From Sorangium aterium (lineage in GTDB: Bacteria > Myxococcota_A > Polyangia > Polyangiales > Polyangiaceae): a stretch of DNA of 64,000 bases. The translations under genes were made by a program, and so were the position numbers. The notes below the pieces were generated by a model. The model was given only the letters and a program-made list of their open reading frames with translations. It searched no databases and was not told where the DNA came from. The stretch spans positions 930,001 to 994,000 of the forward strand of contig NZ_JAQNDK010000002.1 of the NCBI RefSeq assembly GCF_028368935.1, written 5' to 3'. The number at the start of each line of letters is the position of its first letter. The stretch's first letter is position 1. Of this stretch, positions 51,283 through 58,375 are shown piece by piece.

Positions 51283-53100
51283 ATGAGAGACATCAGCTTT
51301 TCTCAAGCAATGATGAGCACGCTTAATAGCTTAGTTTCGGCGAAAGCGTGTCGCCGCTACTCCGCAGTGGCGCTTCTCCTCGCCGGCCCGCTCGGTTGCT
51401 TGGGCAACCTCGGCAATCCCGACGGGACGCCCTCCGAGACCAGTAGCAGCGGCAACGGCAGCGGCAGCGGCAGCAGCAGCAGCGGCGGCGACGCCGGCGG
51501 CCCGCCGATCGGCGATCCGCCGGACATGCCCACGGAGATCCCGGATGTGTCGCACTGCGAGGTCGCGGACAAGAGCACCCCGGGCCCGCGCGTGGTGCGT
51601 CGCCTGACGGTGGATCAATTCGAGGCCACTGTCCGCGATCTCTTCAAGGACCAGAGCGTCGCCCTCCCGAGCATCTTCAATGATCCGCAGGTGCTCGGGT
51701 TCACGGCCGACGCGAACGCGCTGGTGATTCGCGACCTGACGGCCCAGCAGATCATGGATTGGGCCGAGACGACCGCCGACTGGGCGGTGACGAACAAGCT
51801 CTCCAGCATCACCACGGCCTCGTGCAGGACCATGGATGCGAGCTGCCGGACCGAGTTCATCCGCGACTTCGGCCGCCGCGCGTTCCGCGACAAGCTCACG
51901 GACGAGCGCGTCGCGTCCTACGACGCGCTGTTCGGGGCGGAGAAGTCGTTCGAGGACGGCGCCAAGGTGGTCGTGGGCGCCATGCTCCAGTCGCCGTACT
52001 TCCTCTACCGCCACGAGATCGGGACCGATGCGAACGGGTCGGGCATCTACGAGCTCACCCCGCACGAGATCGCGAGCAACCTCTCGTACTTGCTGACCGG
52101 GACCATGCCGGACGAGGCCCTGCTGCAGGCCGCCGACGCGGCCGCCGCCCAGGGCGCCAACCTGACCAGCGAGCAGATCGCGCAGCACGCGCTGCGCCTG
52201 CTGGAGGACTCGGCGACCAGGCCGCTCGCCGAGAAGGAGATGATGCGGTTCATGCGCGGCTGGCTCCAGCTGAACCGCCTCGTCACCGCGGTGAAGGACA
52301 ACACGATCTTCGATCTCACGGACGCCCTGCGCAAGGACATGATGGCCGAGACGCAGGCGCTCGTCGTGGACACCGCGTTCAACCAGAACGGCACGTTCGC
52401 CAACCTCCTGCAGGCGGACTACACGTTCATCAACGCCAGCCTGGGTACGCACTACGGCATCAGCGGCGCCGGGGGCACCGAGCTGACGAAGGTGACGCTC
52501 ACCCCAGGGCAGCGCGACGGGGGCATCCTGGCCCACGGCAGCTTCCTGACGGGGCATGGCAGCGCGAAGCTGTCCTCGCCGACCCAGCGCGGCAAGATGG
52601 TCCGCACGCGCCTCCTCTGCCAGCCGCTCGATCCCCCGCCGCCCGGCGTGGATCCGAACGTCAAGCCCCTGGGGACCCCGGCGACCACGCGCGAGATGGT
52701 CGAGCAGCACACGAAGGCCGAGTATTGCGCGGGCTGCCACAAGTTCACCGACAAGATCGGCGTCGGCTTCGAGCACTACGACACGTTCGGTCGGTGGCGG
52801 AATGACGAGAGCGGGATCCCCGTCGACGTGACCGGTACGGTCGTCGAGCCGCCCAGCGGCGAAGATTTCAATTTCAACGGCGTGGCCGAGCTGGCCGACT
52901 ACCTCGCGGCGAGCGAGGACGTCAAGGCGTGCATGGTCCGTTACTGGTCGTACTACGCGTTCGGCGGCACCTGGGAGCAGGACGGATGCACGTACGAGGA
53001 GGTCCAGGAGGACGCCGCGAAGGACGAGTTCCGTCTCAAGAGCGTGTGGCTCGCGCTGACCCGCGCGCCGCACTTCACCCGCAGAGTTCAAGGTCCGTGA
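51283..53100 (+). CDS. DUF1592-family lipoprotein with c-type heme motif
   Basis: A 605-residue lipoprotein (lipobox AGPLGC, C39), followed by a Ser/Gly-rich linker. The rest matches the DUF1595-1592-1588-1585 architecture shared by myxobacteria and planctomycetes (RRLTVDQFEATVRDLF, QSPYFLYRHEIG, LTPHEIASNLSYLL, GSFLTGHGSAKLSSPTQRG). It includes a CxxCH heme-binding motif, CAGCH at 482-486. Such proteins pair with DUF1552 proteins and are thought to be surface redox or degradative systems; no activity is established. A start at 51310 or 51313 (MMSTLNSL) is also possible, as no clear Shine-Dalgarno sequence exists at 51283. Confidence 0.88.
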   Translation: MRDISFSQAMMSTLNSLVSAKACRRYSAVALLLAGPLGCLGNLGNPDGTPSETSSSGNGSGSGSSSSGGDAGGPPIGDPPDMPTEIPDVSHCEVADKSTPGPRVVRRLTVDQFEATVRDLFKDQSVALPSIFNDPQVLGFTADANALVIRDLTAQQIMDWAETTADWAVTNKLSSITTASCRTMDASCRTEFIRDFGRRAFRDKLTDERVASYDALFGAEKSFEDGAKVVVGAMLQSPYFLYRHEIGTDANGSGIYELTPHEIASNLSYLLTGTMPDEALLQAADAAAAQGANLTSEQIAQHALRLLEDSATRPLAEKEMMRFMRGWLQLNRLVTAVKDNTIFDLTDALRKDMMAETQALVVDTAFNQNGTFANLLQADYTFINASLGTHYGISGAGGTELTKVTLTPGQRDGGILAHGSFLTGHGSAKLSSPTQRGKMVRTRLLCQPLDPPPPGVDPNVKPLGTPATTREMVEQHTKAEYCAGCHKFTDKIGVGFEHYDTFGRWRNDESGIPVDVTGTVVEPPSGEDFNFNGVAELADYLAASEDVKACMVRYWSYYAFGGTWEQDGCTYEEVQEDAAKDEFRLKSVWLALTRAPHFTRRVQGP

Positions 53101-53151
53101 CCCCACGGCTGCAACCCAAGAACAGATCGGTAGCGAGTGAAAGGATCGGTC

Positions 53152-54477
53152 ATGCGCAGCCACAGTCGTAGGAAGTTTCTCAAGGGTGTCGGGGCCAGCC
53201 TGGGGGCCAGCCTTCTGTTCTCTCCCTTCTATGATTCCATCGCCAACGCGGCTCCCGGGAAGAAGCCGAAGCGGCTCCTGATCTTCTTCACGATGGGGAC
53301 GGCCCCCTCGATCTGGAAGCCCAAGAGCGTCTCCGGCGAGACCCCCACGTTCAGCGAGTCCACCTCGCCGCTCGAGGAGGTGAAGGAGCACATCGTGATG
53401 CTGGACGGCCTCCCCAGCGGGAGCCCCAGCAACAACCACGGGTCCGCCGACGGCCTCACCGGGATGGGCTATTACAGCAACGGCCCCTACGGGTTGATCT
53501 CGGTCGACCAGTACATCGTCGAGAAGCTGAAGGGCAGCGGGCTGTCGACGCCCATCCCCTCGCTCCTGCTCGGCGCCGCCGTCGAGGGCGGCAAGACGGG
53601 GTTCTACAAGGGGACCAACCTGTCGCCGATCGCCTCCCCCACGTCCGCCTACTCGACCGTGTTCACGGGCTTCACGCCGTCCAACAACCAAGGCAGCAAC
53701 GACAACGGCGCCGCCGAGGCCCTGCTGAAGCGGCGCAAGAGCGTCCTCGACAACCTCACGAAAGAGCTCACGTCGCTCAAGGGAAACCTGGGGAAGGAGC
53801 AGCAGTACAAGCTGGATCTGCACCTCGAGTCGATCCGCCAGCTCGAGCAGCGGCTCTCGAACACGATGACCCCGGGAGGCGGAGGAGGAGGGACGGGCGC
53901 CTGCTCCGTCCCGGCATCGCCGAACGGCGACATGACCAATGGCTTGAAGGCCAACCAGCTTCATCTGGATATCATCGTCGGCGCGTTCGCGTGCGATATC
54001 ACCCGCGTCGCGGCGATCCAGTGGGGCTCGGATCAGATGATGAACGCGAACCTGAGCGAGATCGGCCTCGCCGGTGAGGAGCATAACGGTATGATCCACA
54101 CCGGCGCCCCCGCGCACCTCGACCTGATCAAGCTCGAGAAGTGGCTGCACCAGCAGTTCGTCGGCGTCATCAAGAAGCTGAAGGCGACGCCCGAGGCCGA
54201 CGGCTCCGGGACGCTCCTCGACAACACGCTGGTCGCCTGGTGCCGCGACATGGGCGACGCGCCGAACCACACCCAGAACGAGATGAAGTTCGTCCTGGCG
54301 AGCGGCAACGGCGGCTATCTGAAGACGGCCCCTGGCGGCCGTTTCATCAAGAGCGGCGAGCGGCACGAGCGCGTGCTGCTCAGCCTGTGCGACGCGATGG
54401 GCGTCACGGACTTCTCCGGCTTCGGGGATCCGGCTCTGGGCAGCAAGACGCCGCTCCCCGGCATCGCCGCGACCTGA
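53152..54477 (+). CDS. DUF1552-family Tat-exported protein (first paralogue)
   Basis: A 441-residue protein beginning MRSHSRRKFLKGVGASLGAS, a twin-arginine (Tat) signal with SRRKFLK. This implies export in folded form, usually with a bound cofactor. The mature part matches DUF1552 (RLLIFFTMGTAPSIW, SETPTFSESTSPL-like, VLLDGLPSG, GTLLDNTLVAWCRDMGD, HNENEMKFVLA-like), which belongs to the alkaline-phosphatase/sulfatase-like superfamily but lacks an obvious nucleophile. AAAGGA lies 6 bases before the ATG at 53152; a GTG at 53137 is also in frame. It follows the DUF1592 gene by 51 bases. Confidence 0.9.
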   Translation: MRSHSRRKFLKGVGASLGASLLFSPFYDSIANAAPGKKPKRLLIFFTMGTAPSIWKPKSVSGETPTFSESTSPLEEVKEHIVMLDGLPSGSPSNNHGSADGLTGMGYYSNGPYGLISVDQYIVEKLKGSGLSTPIPSLLLGAAVEGGKTGFYKGTNLSPIASPTSAYSTVFTGFTPSNNQGSNDNGAAEALLKRRKSVLDNLTKELTSLKGNLGKEQQYKLDLHLESIRQLEQRLSNTMTPGGGGGGTGACSVPASPNGDMTNGLKANQLHLDIIVGAFACDITRVAAIQWGSDQMMNANLSEIGLAGEEHNGMIHTGAPAHLDLIKLEKWLHQQFVGVIKKLKATPEADGSGTLLDNTLVAWCRDMGDAPNHTQNEMKFVLASGNGGYLKTAPGGRFIKSGERHERVLLSLCDAMGVTDFSGFGDPALGSKTPLPGIAAT

Positions 54478-54495
54478 CACCGAGGGCGCGAGGCC

Positions 54496-54539
54496 GCTCG
54501 CCGCGACAGGTGCGCCCCCACGCACCTGTCGCGGCGAGC
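54496..54539. terminator. Perfect 19-bp stem-loop between the DUF1552 paralogues
   Basis: Arms gctcgccgcgacaggtgcg (54496-54514) and its exact complement (54521-54539) enclose the 6-base loop ccccca. It is by far the longest perfect stem I found in the window, and it starts 18 bases after the first paralogue's stop codon. There is no T run. It could attenuate, terminate or stabilise the mRNA between the two genes. Confidence 0.75.
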
Positions 54540-54577
54540 TCCGTTGGCGCGAGATCGGTAGCGTGAAAGGGTCGTTC

Positions 54578-55867
54578 ATGCGCAGTCATCGTCGTAGAGA
54601 TTTCCTCAAGGGGCTGGGGGCCAGCGTCGGGGCCGGCTTCTTGTTCACCCCCTTCCTCGACTCCATCGCCGAGGCGGCGCCCGGGCGGAAGCCCAAGCGG
54701 CTCCTTTTGTTCTGTACGATGGGGACCGCGCCATCGATCTGGAAGCCCACGAGCGTCTCCGGCGAGACCCCCACGTTCAGCGAGTCGACGTCGCCGCTCG
54801 CCGACGTGAAGCAGCACGTCGTGCTCGTGGACGGCCTCCCCAGCGGGAATCCGGGGAACAACCACGGCGCGCCCGACGCCCTGACGGGGCTCGGCTTCAG
54901 CGACCCCGCCAAGCTGATCTCCGTCGACCAGTTCATCGCGGACAAGCTGATCGCCGCCGGCACGAAGACGCAGATCCCCTCGCTCTTGCTCGGGGCCGAG
55001 AGCACGGTGAACGGCGGGAGATCGCCGTATTATCGCAAGGACAACCTGCCGGGCATCGCCTCTCCGACGTCCGCCTATTCCACCCTGTTCGGCTCGGCGA
55101 TCCCGTCGAACACCTCCTCCGACGACCTCTTGCGCCGTCGCAAGAGCGTCCTCGATCACCTCAAGAACGAGATCAAGGCGCTCGAGGGGAACCTCGGCTC
55201 CGAGCAGAAGTACAAGCTGGAGCTGCACATCGATTCGATCCGGCAGATCGAGGAGCGGCTGTCCAACACCTCGTCCGGCCAGACCGGCGGCTGCAGCGTG
55301 CCGACGAAGCCCGCCACCGATCCGGCCAACCCGCTCCAGGCCAACCTGCTCCACATGGATCTCCTCGTCGGCGCGTTCGCGTGCGACATCACCCGGGTCG
55401 GCGCGATCCAGTGGGGCTCGGATCAGGCCATGAACGTCGATCTCCAGGACATCGGGCTGAAGGGCGACGAGCACGGCGCCATGATCCACACCGGGGCGCC
55501 GGCGCACCTCGACCTGATCAAGCTCGAGAAGTGGCTGTCGCAGCGGTTCGTCGACCTCATCAACAAGCTGAAGGCGATCCCGGAGGCCGACGGCTCCGGG
55601 ACGCTCTTCGACAACACGCTGATCGCGTGGTGCCGCGACATGGGCGACTCGCCGAACCACAACCAGAACGAGATGAAGTTCGTCCTGGCAAGCGGCGAAG
55701 GCGGCTATCTGAAGACGGCCCCTGGCGGCCGCTACATCAAGAGCGGCGAGCGGCACGAGCGCGTGCTGCTCAGCCTGTGTGACGCGATGGGCGTCACGGA
55801 CTTCGCGGGCTTCGGCGATCCGAACCTGCGGTCCAAGTCGCCGCTCCCGGGCCTCTCGGCCAGCTGA
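54578..55867 (+). CDS. DUF1552-family Tat-exported protein (second paralogue)
   Basis: A 429-residue protein, beginning MRSHRRRDFLKGLGASVGAG (Tat signal RRRDFLK). It is closely related to the preceding gene along its whole length, with shared blocks such as VSGETPTFSESTSPL, IASPTSAYST, GAFACDITRV and SGERHERVLLSLCDAMGVTD. The differences are mainly a shorter middle region. The leader gatcggtagcg..gtgaaagg is also duplicated, so the gene arose by a tandem duplication including its ribosome-binding site (AAAGGG). The N-terminal GTG at 54563 is an in-frame alternative start. Confidence 0.9.
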   Translation: MRSHRRRDFLKGLGASVGAGFLFTPFLDSIAEAAPGRKPKRLLLFCTMGTAPSIWKPTSVSGETPTFSESTSPLADVKQHVVLVDGLPSGNPGNNHGAPDALTGLGFSDPAKLISVDQFIADKLIAAGTKTQIPSLLLGAESTVNGGRSPYYRKDNLPGIASPTSAYSTLFGSAIPSNTSSDDLLRRRKSVLDHLKNEIKALEGNLGSEQKYKLELHIDSIRQIEERLSNTSSGQTGGCSVPTKPATDPANPLQANLLHMDLLVGAFACDITRVGAIQWGSDQAMNVDLQDIGLKGDEHGAMIHTGAPAHLDLIKLEKWLSQRFVDLINKLKAIPEADGSGTLFDNTLIAWCRDMGDSPNHNQNEMKFVLASGEGGYLKTAPGGRYIKSGERHERVLLSLCDAMGVTDFAGFGDPNLRSKSPLPGLSAS

Positions 55868-56005: not shown

Positions 56006-58375
56006 ATGACGACGCGCGCGCCGGCGGGGTACGAGGCAGATCAACGGCGAGACGACCTGTCCGCGTACGCGCGGTACCTGTCCGCGATGGACGCGTCGAT
56101 GCGCCAGAAGGTCGCGCTCACGGCGGCGCACCTCCTGTGCGAGGGCCGCGTCGCCGACATGGGCATGGGCTCGGGGCAGGGCAGCGCCGCGCTGGCCCAG
56201 CTCTACCCGCGCCTCGAGGTGATCGGCGTCGACATCGATCCGACGGTCGTCGAGCTCGCGCGCCGCGCTCATCAGCAGCCGAACCTGGGCTTTCAGCTGG
56301 GCGACATCGCCAGGACGGTATTCCCGCCCGAGAGCCTCGACGGGATCTTCGACTCGTCGGTGCTCCACCACGTCACCTCGTACGGCGGTTACCGCCACGC
56401 GAACGCCGCCGATGCGCTGGCAGCGCAGGTGGAGCAGCTCGCGCCGGGCGGGGTGCTCGTGGTGAGGGACTTCGTCGATCCCGGGCCGGGGACGGTGTTT
56501 CTGGACGTGCCTGCCGAGGACGGCGATGACGGCCGTGACCCCCGCAGCGCCTCGACGGCGGCGCTGCTCGAGCGGTTCGCGGGCGAGTTTCGCTCGCTCT
56601 CGCCGGAGCCGGGGTTCCCGCTGGCGCGCGTCGCGCCCGAGCCCTCCGGCGAGCTCCCAGCGCCGCGCATGGGGTGGCGTCGGTACCGGCTCGCCCACAA
56701 GCACGCTGTCGAGTTCGTGTTGAGGAAGGATTACCGCGCCGACTGGGAAGCCGAGGTCAAGGAGGAGTACACCTATTTCTCACAAGCGCAGTTCGAGGCG
56801 CTCTTCGCCCGCCTCGGCCTGCGCGTGCTGTCGTCGACGCCGCTGCGCAACCCCTGGATCGTGCGGAACCGGTTCGTCGGTCGCTTCGAGCTCCGGGACG
56901 CCACGGGCGCCCGACTGCCTTATCCGCCCACCAACTACCTGATCGTCGGAGAGAAGGTGAAGGCCGGTCAAGGCGTCGCGTTCCGGCTCGCGCCCGCGGA
57001 GAGCTCTCAGCAGTTCTTGCGGATCGAGCACCACCAGGATCGGGCGACAGGGCAGGTGTTCGACCTGGCGGCGCGGCCGCACCCCACGCTGGACATCGTG
57101 CCGTTCTTCTTCGCGGGCGAGACGGCGTATGTGCTCGCGCGGACGAGCTATCCGCGGCCGATCGCGCGCGCCTGCCGCGAGGAGACGCCTCCGCTCGACG
57201 GCAGCGGGCCGGCCGACTATCTGGCCGAGCCGATCGCGGTCGTGCAGACCGAGTTCCCTGTCGGGCACACGGTCGAGCATGCGCTGGAGCGGGCGGCCGG
57301 GGTGCGCGCGGCGGCGATCCAGCGCATGATCCCTGGCACGACGTACTACCCGTCGCCGGGCGGCATCCTCGAAGAGGTGCGCTCGATGCTGGTGGAGGTC
57401 GAGCCCACGTTCGTGAACGCGCCCTCGGAGAACGTGTCGGGGTTCGGCACCTCAGGACGCATCCGCGCCGTCGAGGCGCGCCAGCTCCTCCGCGCCGCGC
57501 AGGTCGGCGGCCTGCCCGACGCGCGGCTCGAGCTGAACGTCTACGACCTCCTGGCGCGCTTCGGCCTGCCGTTCGGGCCGTGGATCGGCGACGAGATCCC
57601 GCTCCCGGCGGCCGGCGCGGGTCGGCGCGGCGCGGGCGATGCTGGCGGTGCCGGGGCCGGCGACGACGGCGGGGTGGCCGCCGTGCAGCCGACGTCGCTC
57701 GCCGCGCTGCTCGGGCGCCCGAGCCGCCGGCGGTTCTCGCGGGTGGACGCGGGCGCCAGCGCGGGGTTCCTCGAGGTGCGGCGGGCGCGCTTCGAGGAGC
57801 TGACCGCGGACGGCGGCGTGGTGGCCGCGCGAGAGCTGGAGTACGTGGTGCCTCGGCCGCTCGGGGTGCTCACGGTCTCGACGGCGCTGCTCGCGCGGGC
57901 GCCGTCGGGGGAGGTCGTGCTCGGCGTGGACGATCACGATCTGCCGGCCGCCCAGAGCTTCTCTGGCAACAGCGGCATCCTGGTCGCGCCGGCGTGGCGG
58001 CTGCCGCGGAGCGTGAGCGCGCTGGCGGCCGCCGAGGCGTTCGTACGCGAGCGGCTGCAGGTCGAGTACGGCGTTCGGGTGGAGGCGGCCGTCGAGCTCG
58101 GAGGCGCCTACCGCCCGTCGGCAGGGCTAACCCCGGAGCTCGTGCAGCCGCTCGCCTTCGTCGTCACCGCGGCGCCTGCCTCGGCCGGCACGCCCGCCTC
58201 TGCCGCCGCGCCCGACCTCGCGCCGGGGTCCGGTGCCGCTCGGCGGCTCTCGTGGGTGCCGCTGATCGAGCTCGTCGCGGGGCGAGAGCGCCTGCCGGAC
58301 GGCCACCTCCGCGTCGCGGCGCTGCGCGCGGCGCACGCGCTCGGCCTGGCGATCTCGCCGCCCCACCCGCGGTGA
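56006..58375 (+). CDS. SAM-dependent methyltransferase fused to Nudix-like regions
   Basis: A 789-residue protein. Residues 15-190 are a class I methyltransferase (motif I VADMGMGSGQGS at 49-60, VIGVDIDPTVVELA, SSVLHHVT, GGVLVVRDF). Residues 200-300 are a helical insertion, common in methyltransferases of this kind. Residues 305-480 and 610-770 are two related-looking beta-rich regions that resemble Nudix folds (YYPSPGGILEEVRSML near 446; NSGILVAPAW and FVRERLQVEYGV near 655-690), but neither keeps the full Nudix box, so catalysis is doubtful. TACACT lies 7 bases before the ATG. Confidence 0.78.
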   Translation: MTTRAPAGYEADQRRDDLSAYARYLSAMDASMRQKVALTAAHLLCEGRVADMGMGSGQGSAALAQLYPRLEVIGVDIDPTVVELARRAHQQPNLGFQLGDIARTVFPPESLDGIFDSSVLHHVTSYGGYRHANAADALAAQVEQLAPGGVLVVRDFVDPGPGTVFLDVPAEDGDDGRDPRSASTAALLERFAGEFRSLSPEPGFPLARVAPEPSGELPAPRMGWRRYRLAHKHAVEFVLRKDYRADWEAEVKEEYTYFSQAQFEALFARLGLRVLSSTPLRNPWIVRNRFVGRFELRDATGARLPYPPTNYLIVGEKVKAGQGVAFRLAPAESSQQFLRIEHHQDRATGQVFDLAARPHPTLDIVPFFFAGETAYVLARTSYPRPIARACREETPPLDGSGPADYLAEPIAVVQTEFPVGHTVEHALERAAGVRAAAIQRMIPGTTYYPSPGGILEEVRSMLVEVEPTFVNAPSENVSGFGTSGRIRAVEARQLLRAAQVGGLPDARLELNVYDLLARFGLPFGPWIGDEIPLPAAGAGRRGAGDAGGAGAGDDGGVAAVQPTSLAALLGRPSRRRFSRVDAGASAGFLEVRRARFEELTADGGVVAARELEYVVPRPLGVLTVSTALLARAPSGEVVLGVDDHDLPAAQSFSGNSGILVAPAWRLPRSVSALAAAEAFVRERLQVEYGVRVEAAVELGGAYRPSAGLTPELVQPLAFVVTAAPASAGTPASAAAPDLAPGSGAARRLSWVPLIELVAGRERLPDGHLRVAALRAAHALGLAISPPHPR

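Follow-up and report, generated by a model that had tools for sequence, protein, structure and literature searches.

Growth of Cellvibrio japonicus on insoluble cellulose depends on Cbp2D and Cbp2E, for which a novel mechanism of direct cutting has been proposed (PMC12542752). The published layout of Cbp2D is CBM2-X158-FN3-X183-DUF1587-X132, and its X183 domain is able to reduce lytic polysaccharide monooxygenases (LPMOs) (PMC8981238). For X132, no structurally or functionally characterised homologue existed to the knowledge of authors writing in 2024 (PMC10916295), and the relevant passages of three papers leave open which bacterial proteins are partners of LPMOs and what X132 does in Cbp2D (PMC12542752, PMC10916295, PMC10154616). 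Genes for planctomycete-type cytochromes (PSCyt) are numerous in some environmental bacteria, their function also unexplained (PMC5615132). Here, we analysed a DUF1592-DUF1552-DUF1552 gene cluster at positions 51283-55867 of a 64,000-nucleotide stretch of the Sorangium aterium genome (hereafter the window; C2:930001-994000 of 13.47 Mb). We show that DUF1592 and DUF1552 are strongly paired and have co-diversified, and we read the cluster, with belief and doubt about evenly balanced, as the working end of a Cbp2D-like extracellular redox system pared down to two components, probably acting on a polymer.

The Verrucomicrobia PSCyt3/PSD families have the same domains and the same habit of adjoining a family of unknown genes (PMC5615132), whereas the present locus belongs to a myxobacterium and has two DUF1552 copies per DUF1592 gene. 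The neighbour families are unnamed in the main text of that paper, though DUF1552 is counted three times in its stored text. Both DUF1592 and DUF1552 are already known as annotated families, and the adjoining of PSCyt3 and an unknown family was reported in the same source (PMC5615132).

The S. aterium genome contains 28 matches to PSD4 (DUF1592), with 25 full DUF1592 genes (three short matches, at C4:300316, C5:713745 and C1:620752, were not counted as such), and 31 matches to HXXSHH (DUF1552), 30 of them above cut-off and one gene being split in two frames. DUF1552 follows on the same strand after 24 of the 25 full DUF1592 genes. Among related loci, DUF1592 adjoins DUF1552 in 73 of 78; by coordinates, it precedes DUF1552 in 65 of these and comes after it in 8. 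In four of the other five the DUF1552 gene sits at a contig edge, which leaves L109 as the one genuine exception. A search of 235 genomes from the phylum found both families in 119, neither in 102, DUF1552 alone in 4 and DUF1592 alone in 10, a co-occurrence count that takes genomes as independent, which they are not. No more than 9 or 17 candidates were scored for each genome in this search, a cap that bears on per-genome counts and not on presence, and the ten genomes with DUF1592 alone have weak PSD4 matches (E 3.7e-8 to 3.2e-5), yet above the cut-off. The same pattern appeared in a sample of 369 gammaproteobacterial genomes (DUF1552 in 6 and PSD4 in 8, all 6 shared, the remaining 2 weak) and in the 109 genomes of the order of G532 (PSD4 in 12 and DUF1552 in 9, all 9 shared), where the three genomes with PSD4 only have it on contigs of 3.4 and 4.2 kb (G846 and G861) or as a weak match (G838). 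A first-pass annotation of the window had named beforehand, as fatal to its interpretation, a lack of bound heme together with a lack of association between the two families across genomes; for the association, the opposite was found.

The partners have also diversified together. Distances among DUF1592 members and among their DUF1552 partners correlated with r = 0.90 over 23 pairs of this genome, while the best of 9,999 permutations reached 0.447; the test used 23 of the 24 pairs, the C4:768691 pair, with its DUF1552 split in two frames, being omitted. Since all 23 pairs reside in one genome, species history is no explanation for this correlation, although joint duplication of both genes can be one. 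The split gene (L027, C4:768691-769742) stands behind its DUF1592 gene and reflects either a frameshift or a sequencing error.

HXXSHH copy number is high in several myxobacteria (31 here, 33 in So0157-2 and 19 in Nannocystis exedens), which would suit a pair that makes or reshapes a surface polymer of the bacterium itself, such as matrix, slime or spore coat, rather than an outside substrate; the window protein, having no carbohydrate-binding module (CBM), would suit it as well. However, gammaproteobacterial genomes have one or two DUF1552 genes apiece in the sets searched, and CBM2 or CBM26 occurs in 8 of the 10 gammaproteobacterial DUF1592 proteins described below, so that we consider this explanation very unlikely.

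The cluster has the following features, all on the forward strand; its coordinates, reading frames, domains and CAGCH motif were all borne out on recheck of the first-pass annotation.
51283..53100, + strand: DUF1592-type putative lipoprotein of 605 amino acids, with a signal, a Ser/Gly-rich linker and then a PSD3-PSD5-PSD4-PSCyt3-PSD2 array, X132-like (Pfam, profile match, model).
51397..51399, + strand: putative lipidated Cys39 after the imperfect lipobox GPLGC (sequence; N-termini of relatives).
52726..52740, + strand: CAGCH c-type heme attachment motif within PSCyt3/DUF1588 (sequence; alignment A5).
53124..53144, + strand: leader of copy a, consisting of agatcggtagcg at 53124-53135 and a Shine-Dalgarno-like gaaagg at 53139-53144 (sequence; similar in genus relatives).
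53152..54477, + strand: DUF1552 copy a with the twin-arginine leader MRSHSRRKFLKG (Pfam, 202 bits; start by comparison, ATG preferred over GTG 53137).
54082..54099, + strand: HNGMIH of copy a, counterpart of the HHxxSH histidine cluster in other DUF1552 proteins (alignment, sequence).
54552..54570, + strand: leader of copy b, consisting of agatcggtagcg at 54552-54563 and gaaagg at 54565-54570 (sequence, relatives).
54578..55867, + strand: DUF1552 copy b with the twin-arginine leader MRSHRRRDFLKG (Pfam, 195 bits; ATG start preferred over GTG 54563).
55472..55489, + strand: HGAMIH of copy b, counterpart of HHxxSH (alignment, sequence).

The first gene product carries PSD3 (DUF1587), PSD5 (DUF1595), PSD4 (DUF1592), PSCyt3 (DUF1588) and PSD2 (DUF1585) in this order, all above the Pfam cut-offs. 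In all 70 rows of alignment A5, the corresponding position holds CxxCH; the alignment covers 69 of the 73 DUF1592 loci after a length filter, and its L081 row is a second DUF1592 gene of its locus, not the DUF1552-adjacent one. Before filtering, the motif was counted in 72 of the 73 loci, the exception (L096) being truncated by a contig end. Besides CxxCH, no Met or His was conserved in at least 85% of the 70 rows; within residues 476-486 of the window protein there is no conserved Met as a sixth heme ligand, and His476 occurs in 58 of 70. The lipobox GPLGC is imperfect, but among 16 relatives compared at the N-terminus, 15 have a cysteine near the same place. The structure model (523 residues; predicted local distance difference test, pLDDT, 92.5) found no convincing match in the PDB when searched whole rather than by single domains: the best Foldseek E was 0.96, and the best VIA Z was 4.9, to phycobilisome chains over about 115-119 residues. 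Sequence and profile searches of the PDB with the same protein gave zero matches. The predicted structure is possibly a new fold, which a missing PDB match does not prove.

We found the link to Cbp2D in two gammaproteobacteria. In G772 and G760 the array belongs to open frames of 1108 and 1084 residues with the order CBM2-YceI-cytochrome-array. Their domains match the solved X158 (2x34) and Cbp2D X183 (7b21) structures, and the order agrees with the published Cbp2D layout (PMC8981238) apart from FN3 and PSD2, for which there was no reported match. DUF1552 lies directly 3' of the Cbp2D-like gene in both genomes, and in G760 a Cbp2E-like gene (CBM2-PKD-YceI) is on the opposite side. The window DUF1592 profile matched the G760 array with E 4.9e-72 over 505 columns, and the window DUF1552 profile matched the G760 DUF1552 with E 5.9e-35 over 379 columns. 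By architecture, the CxxCH-bearing C-terminal DUF1587-X132 part of Cbp2D (PMC8981238) resembles the window lipoprotein, the profile comparison itself having been made with the G760 protein. In contrast to Cbp2D, the window protein is the array only, without CBM2, YceI (X158) or X183, and is lipoprotein-like. A DUF1552 partner is not mentioned in the passages on Cbp2D that were consulted, and the open-access literature (subscription papers and supplements being outside its scope) yielded no functional study of DUF1552 and no DUF1552-Cbp2D link.

The array also occurs in other fusions. Open frames of 1246-1658 residues in Thiothrix, in Methylococcus and in an unclassified gammaproteobacterium (L124, L125, L140 and L127) combine three or four CBM2 domains and cytochrome domains with the array at their C-terminal end, and DUF1552 comes next. 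G532 and G770 have array proteins with a GSDH sugar-dehydrogenase domain and four CBM26, while a second pair of G770 (L199) and that of G771 (L200) have a membrane-type DUF2231 domain at the N-terminus, match PSCyt1 and carry no CBM. In Thiothrix, an FccA-like heme region is fused to the core (3vrd, E 4e-27), and an FCSD-type flavoprotein gene is downstream. Among ten gammaproteobacterial DUF1592 proteins scanned, mostly chosen for length, CBM2 was found in six and CBM26 in two, and DUF1552 adjoined in all ten. The constancy of array plus DUF1552 across such varied fusions suggests that this pair is the working end and that the remaining parts supply electrons and substrate binding. As side observations, an FCSD-type flavoprotein gene stands after DUF1552 in both Thiothrix and G530 (L174:10176-11486 and L172:4238-5542), a gene upstream in the L199 locus carries an agarase-type CBM, and the next genes after the Methylococcus pair encode an unrelated aminotransferase and succinyltransferase.

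These fusions bear on whether a polymer is involved at all. The pair might be a respiratory or extracellular electron-transfer module without a polymer substrate, in which DUF1552 shields or docks the heme; CxxCH in every A5 row, relatives with several cytochrome domains and an FCSD-type flavoprotein, and the two relatives with DUF2231 in place of a CBM are all consistent with this. We nevertheless regard it as distinctly improbable, given the cellulose- or starch-binding modules fused in 8 of the 10 scanned proteins and the need for Cbp2D and Cbp2E during growth on insoluble cellulose (PMC12542752). The exported, redox-type character assigned to the cluster in the first-pass annotation is supported. 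Relatives in which the array is fused to modules that bind cellulose or starch lend indirect support to a degradative role; the window proteins themselves have no such module.

For DUF1552, a model of copy b (54677-55864, pLDDT 89.5; its numbering is used for residues below) gave 13 Foldseek matches with E <= 0.001, all to sulfatases, sulfamidases or YejM (1p49, E 3.7e-7). VIA returned nucleotide phosphodiesterases and alkaline phosphatases, with a best Z of 16.9 and a root-mean-square deviation of 3.2 over 238 residues; Z was 16.9 to the NPP-type 5gz5, 16.8 to PafA (5too) and 16.2 to choline sulfatase (6g5z). DUF1552 is therefore predicted to have the alkaline-phosphatase/sulfatase fold. Unlike this likeness in structure, no sequence relation to the alkaline phosphatase/sulfatase/NPP superfamily was detected: a PDB sequence search with DUF1552 gave one chance-level lipoprotein match (E 0.41), and a PDB profile search gave five matches, the best (E 0.0035) to about 75 residues of an unrelated oxidoreductase.

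Among 80 aligned DUF1552 sequences (alignment A4, in which the L078 row is copy a of that locus), His63, Thr239, Arg240, His271, Asp312 and His328 count among the invariant positions, and cysteines 206 and 236 occur in 78 of 80 each. The candidate metal ligands are mostly His. The superfamily nucleophile is a Ser, Thr or Cys, and we placed the presumed nucleophile stretch of DUF1552 by this motif and not by superposition; in the stretch so placed, none of the three is conserved over the 80 rows, in difference from the superfamily. This matters for the explanation in which DUF1552 is a metal-dependent sulfatase- or phosphatase-type hydrolase acting on polymer substituents, with the DUF1592 heme protein anchoring it or sensing redox and feeding no electrons. 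The top fold matches point that way, and sulfatase genes often adjoin PSCyt genes in some Verrucomicrobia (PMC5615132). Against it stand the same unconserved stretch, the invariant His63 among mostly His ligands, and the variety of fused redox modules, which it leaves unexplained; we judge a hydrolase unlikely, though still to be taken seriously.

Both window copies depart from the HHxxSH-type pattern (His267 with Ser or Ala at 270), having G or N at 267 and I at 270. All 54 other rows have His267, whereas none of the 26 rows in the window subgroup does, and Arg320 is present in all 26 of the latter. By these alignment positions, the window copies form a separate DUF1552 subfamily with an altered motif. 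All 25 DUF1552 genes of this genome that belong to DUF1592 clusters encode His271, versus 1 of the 5 outside them, a count that leans on related paralogues, as three of the four losses are one group. As His271 is kept with a partner and mostly lost without one, this histidine site appears tied to having a DUF1592 partner. His63 and His360 showed no significant link to partner presence among the DUF1552 genes of this genome. Three DUF1552 proteins of about 550 residues without a DUF1592 neighbour (L024, L028 and L048; C3:957130, C2:1499873 and C7:474088) have lost both His271 and His328 and are possibly pseudoenzymes.

Both downstream frames match HXXSHH (PF07586) at 202 and 195 bits, versus a Pfam cut-off of 30, and copies a and b are 69% identical across 443 columns. 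The shared leaders reported in the first-pass annotation are real, with agatcggtagcg and gaaagg before both copies, but the GTG within its 'gtgaaagg' is unlikely to be the start codon. In genus relatives, the GTG codon of this string is GTG in some copies and GCG, GGG or AGC in others, whereas AAAGG or AGAGG followed by ATG is conserved. The copies therefore probably begin at ATG 53152 and 54578, the GTG candidates (53137 and 54563) were set aside, and 'gtgaaagg' reads as a ribosome-binding site ahead of the ATG in both. For export by twin-arginine translocation (Tat), also claimed at first pass, the twin-arginine leaders gave mixed scores: copy b scored 19.7 against the NCBIfam cut-off of 16.7 and 16.5 against the Pfam cut-off of 22.7, while copy a reached 14.6, below the NCBIfam cut-off, though its sequence reads SRRKFLKG.

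The tandem duplication does not appear to be recent, contrary to the first-pass annotation. Close relatives (E <= 1e-60) were found in 23 of 183 genomes of the order, with a DUF1592 match in the same locus in 23 of 23. Six genomes of the genus were listed with a match; four of them (G000, G163, G166 and G167) carry both copies, and the single copies of G164 and G165 group with copy a in the tree. In the approximately unbiased (AU) test, a tree with duplication after the split from the two single-copy genomes was rejected (p-AU 7.4e-5), the tested group having been defined after inspection of the first tree and the single-copy rows having long branches. With the 69% identity, this speaks against a recent event; the duplication appears to predate the sampled Sorangium species, and copy b was presumably lost in G164 and G165. 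As an old paralogue kept in four of the six genomes, the second DUF1552 protein probably serves as an alternative partner with a specialised role. In G164 and G165 the gene that follows the cluster is seemingly kept as well, since the translated tails of L055 and L054 resemble the window 56006-58375 product by eye.

The closest named relatives of copy b in the genome-collection scan are from Sorangium, at 86-87% identity. The cluster is immediately flanked by an inorganic pyrophosphatase gene and a gene for a methyltransferase-domain protein (Pfam).

How the Cbp2D-like reading of the cluster would work can be put as follows. The DUF1592 protein, whose leader is seen, would be exported and anchored as a lipoprotein, and its motif suggests one covalent c-type heme in the X132-like module. 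Both DUF1552 proteins would be exported folded via the Tat route, each with a predicted alkaline-phosphatase/sulfatase-type fold and a His-rich, probably metal-binding site. The two kinds of protein, paired and co-diversified as they are, would act together, perhaps as a physical complex. Electrons would reach the X132 heme, pass to the DUF1552 metal site and drive a redox reaction on an extracellular polymer, a direction and substrate that we infer.

Several observations weigh against this reading. The predicted DUF1552 fold would also suit a hydrolase, and a comparison of DUF1552 by hhalign with one Phosphodiest protein encoded in this genome gave no sign of a sequence relation. The window proteins carry no CBM (Pfam), carbohydrate-active genes are absent directly beside the cluster (the flanks being the pyrophosphatase and the methyltransferase-domain protein), and 2 of the 10 scanned gammaproteobacterial proteins (L199 and L200) have DUF2231 and no CBM. 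About 24 pairs in this one genome are many for a single substrate. Plain CxxCH is missing in 3 of the 25 DUF1592 paralogues of this genome (L049, L021 and L039). From the literature, Teredinibacter X183 domains gave no electrons to its LPMO (PMC10916295), and in Verrucomicrobia PSCyt gene density drops as glycoside hydrolase density rises (r = -0.62), with PSCyt products predicted to be periplasmic or cytoplasmic (PMC5615132). The three paralogues just named show wider cysteine spacings, for example CAKGCH or CGASCH.

A bolder extension is a new class of extracellular metalloenzymes, activated by reduction and built on an alkaline-phosphatase fold, with X132 plus DUF1552 as their conserved catalytic core; they would attack polymers such as cellulose as a bacterial counterpart of LPMOs. 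The YceI, cytochrome, GSDH and FCSD-type parts would then be swappable electron inputs, the CBMs swappable aiming parts, and DUF1552 the unrecognised partner behind the cutting proposed for Cbp2D/Cbp2E. We hold this tentatively and think it unlikely as a whole. The likeness to LPMOs would be one of possible functional analogy only, that of an exported, reductively activated metalloenzyme beside polysaccharide-binding parts, whereas the predicted fold of DUF1552 differs and the window proteins have no LPMO domain (Pfam).

The two-copy cluster, from a subfamily with an altered motif, is a variant of the known pair; the link of DUF1552 to Cbp2D-type loci is absent from the open-access literature searched. 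X132-type arrays are tied to a near-constant DUF1552 partner, for which a fold is predicted and invariant residues can be named. This turns the matter into a defined two-protein question, for which the window holds the DUF1592-DUF1552 pair in a compact, natural form. The link bears both on the function of PSCyt genes and on the role of the X132 module in Cbp2D.

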